DNA of 22,667 nt from a virus, in the IMG/VR virus record IMGVR_UViG_3300017714_002504, positions 1 through 22,667 of that record; one strand, 5' to 3'. The position numbers and the translations under genes were made by a program. Each line of letters opens with the position of its first letter. Position 1 is the stretch's first letter. Below are positions 702 to 19,973 of this stretch, in pieces. The notes under the pieces are model-generated. The model had not been told where the DNA came from. It worked only from the letters and a program-made list of their open reading frames with translations, and made no database searches.

Positions 702-720
702 GACATTTCTTAACATTCTG

Positions 721-749
721 AAGGGGGCCTTGACAGGTCCCCTTTTTTT
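721..749 (+). terminator. Rho-independent terminator after the Ala/Lys/Pro-rich gene
   Basis: An 8-bp stem (723-730 with 735-742, one G-T pair) closes a 4-nt loop and is followed by seven T residues (743-749). It ends the gene that stops at 701. The loop and stem top also spell TTGACA, the -35 of the next promoter. Confidence 0.88.
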
Positions 750-758
750 ATGTACAAT
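730..758 (+). promoter_or_regulatory. Sigma70-type promoter embedded in the terminator
   Basis: TTGACA at 730-735, a 17-bp spacer, then TACAAT at 753-758. The -35 lies in the terminator hairpin top and the spacer contains the T tract. It would start transcription near 765, just upstream of the ATG at 782. Confidence 0.75.
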
Positions 759-18581: not shown

Positions 18582-18872
18582 ATGACATACACTATTACAC
18601 TGAAGACTACTGAAGGTGATCATACTATCCAGTGTGAAGATGATCAATACATCCTTGACGCTGCTGAAGAAGCAGGGGTCGATATGCCTTACTCATGTCG
18701 TGCTGGTGCCTGTTCTACATGTGCTGGTAAAATTATTAGTGGAACCGTTGATCAAAGCGATCAATCTTTCTTGGATGATGATCAACTTGAAGCAGGTTTC
18801 CTACTTACGTGTGTATCTTACCCCACATCTGATTGTGTAATTGCAACCGAAAAAGAAGAGGAACTTTATTAA
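18582..18872 (+). CDS. petF: Plant-type 2Fe-2S ferredoxin
   Basis: 96 residues, the usual length. The iron-sulfur ligands are Cys39, Cys44, Cys47 and Cys77 in [15 protein letters not shown] and LLTCVSYP, with the beta-grasp start [16 protein letters not shown]. It accepts electrons from photosystem I and passes them to ferredoxin-NADP reductase, nitrogen and sulfur assimilation, or phycobilin reductases; cyanophage-encoded ferredoxins are well known and often supply phage bilin reductases. Acidic overall, as expected for docking to FNR. Own promoter at 18529-18557. TAATG junction with the next gene. Confidence 0.95.
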
Positions 18873-19096: not shown

Positions 19097-19238
19097 TCCT
19101 AATCAACTCTATGAAGACATGGAGAAACTGAATGCCCTATACGAAGAGCTCTGTTGGGCACATGATGATGAACTAGTATTCACACATGAAAATGGCAGAG
19201 TAATTGTTTACAACAAAACACAGGAGCAAAACAAATGA
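19089..19238 (+). CDS. Hypothetical protein (49 aa)
   Basis: 49 residues, ATG at 19089 inside the end of the preceding gene and TGA at 19236-19238 overlapping the start of the second Hli gene (ATGA). The sequence is MTNPNQLYEDMEKLNALYEE, then LCWAHDDELVFTHENGRVIV and YNKTQEQNK: an amphipathic helix followed by a beta hairpin. Tight overlaps on both sides support it. Function unknown. Confidence 0.65.
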   Translation: MTNPNQLYEDMEKLNALYEELCWAHDDELVFTHENGRVIVYNKTQEQNK

Positions 19239-19342
19239 ACGAAAACGCAGAACGCATCAACGGTATGGCAGCAATGATCGGAGTGATCGCTGCTCTTGGA
19301 GCATACGCCATGACAGGCCAAATCATTCCAGGTATTTGGTAA
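19235..19342 (+). CDS. hli: Short high-light-inducible protein (Hli) with altered pigment motif
   Basis: 35 residues: MNENAERINGMAAMIGVIAA and then LGAYAMTGQIIPGIW. The body matches the common marine Hli pattern (AERINGR-AMIG...AY-TTGQIIPG), so the family is clear. The pigment-binding motif ExxNGR reads E6-R-I-N9-G-M11 here: the Arg that normally makes the inter-helix salt bridge with Glu is Met. Glu and Asn are kept, so chlorophyll ligands may survive, but helix pairing should differ. Starts in an ATGA overlap. Confidence 0.85.
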   Translation: MNENAERINGMAAMIGVIAALGAYAMTGQIIPGIW

Positions 19343-19352
19343 ACCGAACCTC

Positions 19353-19381
19353 TTTACACAAAAGACGTTTTATGTTATACT
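19353..19381 (+). promoter_or_regulatory. Sigma70 promoter overlapping a late-type ACTAAATA box
   Basis: TTTACA at 19353-19358, 17-bp spacer, TATACT at 19376-19381. ACTAAATA (19379-19386) overlaps the -10 and is one mismatch from the T4-type late box NATAAATA, so the site could be used both early and late. Confidence 0.65.
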
Positions 19382-19387
19382 AAATAA

Positions 19388-19537
19388 ATGGACGTAACCA
19401 ATGTTACGTTTTACAACAGACTGGTGAGTCTCAACTAATCGCTCATCAGTCTGTGATATACTTACTTCAACGAGAACAAGTCGAGTTCTCTTTCATCCGT
19501 AGGTTAAACTCTACGAGACATACTTAAAGGTACAACA
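19388..19537 (+). promoter_or_regulatory. Structured 150-nt leader with four consecutive hairpins
   Basis: From the likely start near 19388 to the ATG at 19538 there are four stem-loops: 19392-19409 (ACGTAAC/GTTACGT), 19416-19454 (13 bp with one G-T, loop 13 nt), 19472-19490 (GAGAAC/GTTCTC) and 19498-19515 (CGTAG/CTACG, loop GTTAAACT). A purine-rich AAAGG ribosome-binding site (19526-19530) lies just after them. No gene is seen here. The density of hairpins suggests a regulatory or stabilising leader for the downstream porin-like gene. Confidence 0.6.
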
Positions 19538-19909
19538 ATGTTTAAATCTGTATTCGCAGCAACTGCTGCTCTTTCCGTTTCTGCTGGTGCTGCTTTCGCA
19601 GGCCCCTACGTCAATGTAGAAACCAATGCTGGCTGGACTGGTTCTGACTACAATGGAACCGCCACGGATCTTCACCTGGGCTATGAAGGCGCACTCGGTG
19701 AGTCTGCCTCATACTACGTCCAGGGTGGCGCTACTGTAGTCTCTCCTGACGGTGGCGAAAGCGACACCGTTCCTTCTGGTAAGGCAGGTCTGGGTCTTGC
19801 ACTAACCGATAGTCTTGGTGCATACGGTGAAGTCTCCTTCGTTGGCAGTGGTGACAGCGATATCGATCGTGGATACGGTGGTAAGTTGGGCGTCAAGTAC
19901 AGCTTCTGA
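19538..19909 (+). CDS. Secreted porin-like beta-barrel protein
   Basis: 123 residues with a classic signal peptide (MFKSVFAATAALSVSAGAAF, cleavage after Ala21) and a mature part of alternating polar/hydrophobic residues and aromatic-Gly turns: YVNVETNAGW, ATDLHLGYEGA, SYYVQGGATVV, GLGLALTDSLGAYGEVSFVG, YGGKLGVKYSF. The final Phe is the C-terminal signature of outer-membrane beta-barrels. At about six strands it would be a minimal barrel or a subunit. GC content and codon choice (GCT, GGT, CTC, GTC) look richer than in its AT-rich neighbours. It may remodel the host outer membrane or form a virion surface; sequence cannot decide. Confidence 0.7.
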   Translation: MFKSVFAATAALSVSAGAAFAGPYVNVETNAGWTGSDYNGTATDLHLGYEGALGESASYYVQGGATVVSPDGGESDTVPSGKAGLGLALTDSLGAYGEVSFVGSGDSDIDRGYGGKLGVKYSF

Positions 19910-19947: not shown

Positions 19948-19973
19948 GGGGTGCGACGGCATCCCTTTTTTTT
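19948..19973 (+). terminator. Rho-independent terminator after the porin-like gene
   Basis: 7-bp stem GGGGTGC/GCATCCC (19948-19954 with 19959-19965) with loop GACG and a run of eight T residues (19966-19973). The next ATG follows the T run directly. Confidence 0.88.

Follow-up and report, generated by a model that had tools for sequence, protein, structure and literature searches.

The 5' untranslated region of E. coli ompA, the gene of a small outer-membrane barrel, carries stability hairpins at the 5' end of the mRNA, and the coat-protein operator of the RNA phage MS2 is a short hairpin with a bulged A that lies near a start codon and is bound by protein. Several structured RNAs are known from cyanophages, namely wcaG, manA, glnA, PhotoRC-II and CfrI (PMC9964418, PMC2864571). 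The manA RNA (RF01745) and the glnA glutamine riboswitch (RF01739) are cis-regulatory RNAs reported in cyanophages (PMC9964418), whereas CfrI of S-PM2 is an antisense RNA of about 225 nt at psbA (PMC2984593). The wcaG (RF01761) and PhotoRC-II (RF01717) RNAs are candidate cis-regulatory structured RNAs in 5' regions of genes of T4-like cyanophages, and the leader described here is a candidate of the same kind.

The window, i.e. the whole 22.7-kb stretch of DNA that was analysed, is an IMG/VR fragment of a T4-like Synechococcus phage, and its closest records are Synechococcus phages. The gene behind the leader had been labeled porin-like by the original prediction. It belongs to PF24653, which bears the Pfam title 'Cyanophage outer membrane protein like beta barrel', the AlphaFold model of its 123-aa product consists of six antiparallel strands (pLDDT 78), and the best matches of this model among PDB structures, with weak E-values, are the OmpA, OmpX and OprF barrels. 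Taken together, these data make small OmpA/OmpX-type beta-barrel a better term than porin. Genes for a ferredoxin and a high-light-inducible protein (window positions 18582-18872 and 19235-19342), forming a photosynthesis-type cluster, lie just 5' of the leader. The features of the region are the following:

19353 to 19381, plus strand: putative promoter P1, TTTACA-17-TATACT with TG before the -10 (10 of 12 matches in a consensus scan)
19379 to 19386, plus strand: putative late-type promoter, ACTAAATA, one mismatch from the cyanophage late promoter NATAAATA; relatives have TATAAATA at the same place
19390 to 19411, plus strand: hairpin H1 of the computed fold, 9 bp with a 4-nt loop, predicted 5'-terminal hairpin of the late-type transcript; its sequence is not conserved
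19416 to 19454, plus strand: hairpin H2 of the computed fold, 14-bp stem including G-U, 11-nt loop at 19430-19440 (CUCAACUAAUC)
19454 to 19462, plus strand: putative inner promoter P2, extended -10 TGnTATACT with a weak -35 in the window
19472 to 19490, plus strand: hairpin A, 6-bp stem 19472-19477/19485-19490, loop AAGUCGA at 19478-19484
19494 to 19497, plus strand: CAUC element, invariant in the alignments; its U and C lengthen stem B
19496 to 19518, plus strand: hairpin B, 8 bp (19496-19503 with 19510-19515 and 19517-19518), bulged A at 19516
19526 to 19530, plus strand: ribosome-binding site AAAGG, recognized from the sequence
19538 to 19909, plus strand: Phage_OMP gene, 123-aa secreted small beta-barrel (PF24653 Phage_OMP, PHROG 417, DUF680, PhCOG173)
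19948 to 19973, plus strand: strong intrinsic terminator 3' of the Phage_OMP gene

In Rfam searches at threshold only three tRNAs were found in the window, and the leader had no Rfam 15 match at the gathering threshold. Permissive searches with the window and with related leaders gave matches far below threshold, none of them credible; the glutamine riboswitch glnA, first suggested by the CAUC...AAGU spacing, was dropped on these grounds. The same search detected wcaG and PhotoRC-II in three relatives (L030, L044 and L072) at places other than the leader, which shows that it was not blind. One of these relatives (L030) carries tandem wcaG matches at 471-566 and 575-683, the second below the gathering score. 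The leader differs from wcaG and PhotoRC-II in sequence, structure and associated genes, neither of these RNAs scoring in it; it shares the cyanophage cis-RNA setting with manA and glnA, but matches neither even at permissive thresholds; and it is a non-coding RNA of a T4-like cyanophage as CfrI is, but not an antisense RNA at psbA.

All four stem-loops that had been predicted in the leader were present in both the minimum free energy and the centroid folds of 19388-19540. The folding energy was -43.1 kcal/mol, compared with -28.5 ± 3.6 kcal/mol in dinucleotide shuffles (z = -4.05), and one of 200 shuffles was as stable as the real sequence. The opposite strand folded less well (z = -2.23). 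The longest stem, in H2, had been counted as 13 bp; it is indeed long, and has 14 bp once G-U is included. The predicted distance of 10 nt between the last hairpin and AAAGG was correct, with the main helix of stem B ending at 19515 and AAAGG beginning at 19526.

To examine the hairpins in relatives, 80 close and 160 more distant loci were gathered, plus 14 named phages. The intergenic DNA upstream of the gene is mostly unalignable among them, but one block recurs, in which stem A, closed by the 7-nt loop NNGUCGA, is joined through a short linker with CAUC at its 3' end to stem B, followed by AG and the ribosome-binding site. The check proposed beforehand for the stems, a search for compensatory changes, was carried out on this core, and pairing proved to be preserved. 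In 61 MAFFT-aligned sequences, 10 of the 12 pairs showed double changes that stay paired, and 94.9% of the cells were paired (76.3% in column shuffles), a value that fell to 31-59% when the partner was shifted by one to three columns. In 100 model-aligned sequences 98.2% were paired as against 74.6% in shuffles, with 306 double-change cells compared to 78, although this alignment, having been fitted to the structure model, leans towards it. In an APC mutual-information scan of the same 100 sequences the nine top couplings were all predicted pairs, followed by a clear gap. Compensatory changes were seen in all six pairs of hairpin A, which is among the top couplings, and in four of the six main pairs of hairpin B. 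The secondary structure of the core is thus supported by compensatory changes. G-U pairs outnumbered A-C pairs 118 to 3 (22 to 3 when the near-constant G-U closing pair of B is excluded), which indicates that selection acts on the plus-strand RNA. The same tolerance for G-U but not for A-C speaks against the inverted repeats being operator or promoter parts at the DNA level, and so do arms that vary freely yet stay complementary, the opposite of operator conservation. Promoter-like elements are interspersed with the hairpins, and some relatives have an inverted repeat as the spacer of their inner promoter, but even so a DNA-level feature appears extremely improbable.

The unpaired bases of the core are as conserved as its stems in the 100-sequence alignment. 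Hardly any variation is seen at GUCG of loop A, at CAUC, at the A and G 3' of stem B or at several positions in loop B; in a few loci CAUC is replaced by AAUC. In the distant form, as in the window fold, G-A beyond the bulged A is the pairing partner of the U and C in CAUC. Moreover, the base at 19518 tracks the basal pair of B: it is A if this pair is C-G and U or C if it is U-A. This tracking and the pairing across the bulge make hairpin B a helix whose bulged A is invariant. Of 114 unique loci, 19 (about one in six) have a longer stem capped by a short A-rich loop in place of the GUCG loop; five further loci classed as 'other' in this count still contain GTCG. Stem A therefore tolerates substitution, with CAUC, stem B and AG retained, and the GUCG loop is not strictly required.

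Where transcription might start bears on the role of these hairpins. The leader had been placed behind a promoter, and a sigma70-like site is present at 19353-19381, but the scan count of such sites (three, against 2.5 in shuffles) gave hardly any excess, so that P1 is supported by its position and by its conservation in two relatives (L002 and L003). The cyanophage late promoter is NATAAATA (PMC2984593), and of 130 unique loci 51 have exact TATAAATA upstream; for T4-like cyanophages, overlap of early and late promoters has been described (PMC2984593). At the place of P2 many relatives have a near-perfect TTGACA-17-TATAAT, of which the window retains the extended -10 only. The relatives often read TTGACA/TTGACG-17-TATAAT, with the -10 at -33 to -40 from CATC, and with this spacing the predicted transcript start falls at the foot of hairpin A. 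Both the late-type and the inner transcript would carry a hairpin at or near the 5' end. In four relatives (L046, L082, L095 and L176) the spacer of the inner sigma70 promoter, just 5' of hairpin A, forms the inverted repeat TTGACAGCAC...GTGCTATAAT, which could be an operator.

This arrangement is what one would expect if the hairpins were passive stabilizers that merely block 5'-end-dependent attack by RNase E, as in E. coli ompA, without being specifically recognized. A hairpin directly follows each predicted start (H1 after TATAAATA, A after the inner promoter), the sequence of H1 is free, A-rich loops can replace GUCG, and the product is an OmpA/OmpX-like barrel. The leader may indeed be likened to the ompA 5' untranslated region in having hairpins at the 5' end of the mRNA for an outer-membrane barrel; what sets the cyanophage core apart is its bulged A and the near-invariance of its unpaired bases. 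A plain stem needs none of CAUC, the bulged A, the flanking G or the loop B bases to be near-invariant; B lies internal to A, and the loop of H2 is fixed as well. Passive stabilization as the whole explanation is therefore possible, but we consider it doubtful.

H1 itself has the features of a simple hairpin for 5'-end stability. Most relatives have a hairpin after TATAAATA, with 64% being more stable than 90% or more of the shuffles, and within the nearest group (L082 and L095) the arms of H1 differ with pairing kept. The loop of H2 has the family consensus CUCAAYUAMUC and is carried by 43 other loci, in 32 unique copies in all, every one of them upstream of Phage_OMP; those measured precede CATC by 52-85 nt. 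These copies were collected with the loop as search key, the stem not being part of the key, and the stem covaries (20 double-change cells, 6.4 in shuffles). On inspection no consistent pairing between the H2 loop and the core was found.

About 233 of the 246 sampled loci with enough upstream sequence have the core. When the core model was run on 14 complete phage genomes, eight of them gave one confident match each, just before Phage_OMP. The match in P-SSM7 was weak (25 bits, E = 9e-5) and represents a divergent form, which precedes the Phage_OMP gene in Prochlorococcus myoviruses; P-HM2 and AG-345-L05 also carry it, missed by the core model but clear by eye. Among the 14 genomes the core was absent from P-TIM40, ACG-2014f and both podoviruses. 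Podovirus Phage_OMP homologues have little or no upstream space, and a few homologues among the sampled loci lack the element altogether. An 18-base signature of the divergent form was found 119 times in a scan; in 111 cases Phage_OMP comes immediately after it, and the other eight run into a contig end. In the sampled loci and genomes the core was never found away from the Phage_OMP gene, and as to host copies, only one marginal match was obtained in 151 genomes (family of the single-cell genome Prochlorococcus AG-363-M21). A minus-strand match of the core model within the window (704-752, 19 bits) was rejected, as it falls on a GC-rich terminator-like GGGGACC...GGCCCCC hairpin after the first gene.

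The core always lies on the same strand as Phage_OMP, with CATC about 40-52 nt 5' of the start codon, and this constant position points to a role in cis. Single-stranded GUCG, CAUC and CUCAAYUAMUC, conserved in a compact 5' fold, could pair with other RNAs if processing or termination released the leader as a small RNA acting in trans. However, the distance to the start codon is held, the core never occurs apart from Phage_OMP, and no plus-strand terminator was found between core and ATG in the window leader; such a small RNA thus appears very unlikely. The distances also take every value from 40 to 52 in relatives, so that no frame is kept, in agreement with the predicted lack of coding potential. 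This leaves practically no probability for a translated leader peptide or an extended protein start, in spite of the records of Syn10 and P-SSM7, which place the gene start inside the leader: leader length runs through all three frames, and translation from the downstream ATG gives a protein that begins with a conserved signal peptide. The annotated starts in Syn10 (L093 1330-1434) and P-SSM7 (L086 1405-1428) add about 35 and 8 spurious residues, respectively, before the signal peptide.

The Prochlorococcus-phage form (L085, L086, L092, L096-L175) has a conserved segment, GGACTCGAAAGATCGTAACCCTG, 5' of stem A; this segment could compete with stem B by pairing with its 5' arm. Six of six pairs between the upstream CCCUGYG and this arm are possible in 94 of 118 sequences, but the partners do not track each other consistently. 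CGCAGGG-UUUUUU in this form was considered as a terminator and rejected, the U run being unconserved. Such an alternative pairing, in a compact multi-helix leader with conserved unpaired bases, brings to mind a metabolite or ion riboswitch tuning expression to the state of the host, for example to phosphate, and a phosphate-limitation response has been suggested for DUF680/PhCOG173 (PMC6224464). Yet the tracking is inconsistent, the core is small, occurs in phages only and guards a single, non-metabolic gene, and no classical expression platform is evident in the window form. There is no terminator over the core, and the ribosome-binding site is partly open (mean unpaired 0.58; AUG 0.61), so that its masking by the leader is unclear and no ready switch is visible. 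A pho box in the leader was also rejected, one half-site only being present, on the minus strand. We therefore regard a metabolite or ion riboswitch as distinctly unlikely.

Of the roles offered by the original prediction, a regulatory RNA or stability element acting in cis fits best, the core always preceding the same start codon at nearly the same distance, and its view that the leader is more structured than a simple leader needs is strongly supported by the covariation, the near-invariant unpaired bases, the linkage to one gene and the lack of an Rfam match. Our preferred reading, to which we give an even chance, is that 19390-19518 is a structured 5' leader whose core is a cis-acting element setting the stability or translation of Phage_OMP mRNA, probably via a protein. 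The terminator at 19948 and the sigma70-like promoter make Phage_OMP probably a one-gene, monocistronic unit, whose transcript from the upstream promoter would carry 19390-19518 as its 5' untranslated leader. The core (hairpin A, CAUC, and hairpin B with its bulged A) would then act on the mRNA during infection. Near-invariant unpaired bases suggest specific recognition, most likely by a protein, and the GUCG loop, CAUC, the bulged A and the loop of B most likely form an RNA surface for a phage or host RNA-binding protein. A contribution to stability is suggested too by the hairpins at the predicted 5' ends: the 5' end of the mRNA would be shielded by H1 and, where transcription begins at the inner promoter, by hairpin A. 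We infer that the leader is transcribed, and that a partner bound to it shifts expression of the gene up or down. The A-rich loops in place of GUCG, the partly open ribosome-binding site and the few homologues devoid of the element speak against this reading. By analogy only, hairpin B may be compared with the MS2 operator as a bulged-A hairpin near a start codon; the sequence, the loop and the position of the bulge differ. A more far-reaching version, in which the double hairpin with bulged A and GUCG loop represents a new phage-specific class of RNA operator or riboswitch that responds to a ligand or to a protein of a given infection stage and thereby controls outer-membrane-protein expression in marine T4-like cyanophages, the Prochlorococcus form acting as a bistable switch, seems to us conceivable but unlikely.

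In open-licence PubMed Central papers no earlier description of the leader was found; one may exist elsewhere. Paired mutations have maintained the fold of the core across hundreds of marine cyanophages, and the core seems to be a new control element of a phage gene that occurs very widely. Only a handful of structured RNAs are known from marine phages, and the core is an addition to them. An RNA element dedicated to Phage_OMP also offers a handle on how phages adjust the expression of an outer-membrane protein.

With 456 phage records matching in tblastn, the Phage_OMP gene is among the commonest cyanophage-specific genes. PhCOG173 was mutated in about 100% of S-TIM4 phages evolved on Synechococcus WH8102, many of the mutations being disruptive (PMC6224464), and its repeated disruption in this laboratory evolution evidently reflects a cost of expression that depends on host or conditions. 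The product has been detected in S-SZBM1 virions (PMC9146016), and the S-TIM4 study assigned PhCOG173 to the nonstructural proteins (PMC6224464). Some genomes of the Prochlorococcus/Synechococcus family (L382-L387) encode proteins of about 330 aa with a distant PF24653 match, a possible cellular source of the phage gene. S-SM2 has a second, diverged Phage_OMP copy beside pstS (L094 2123-2497), which is without the RNA core and is accompanied by TTAACC-type, pho box-like repeats.
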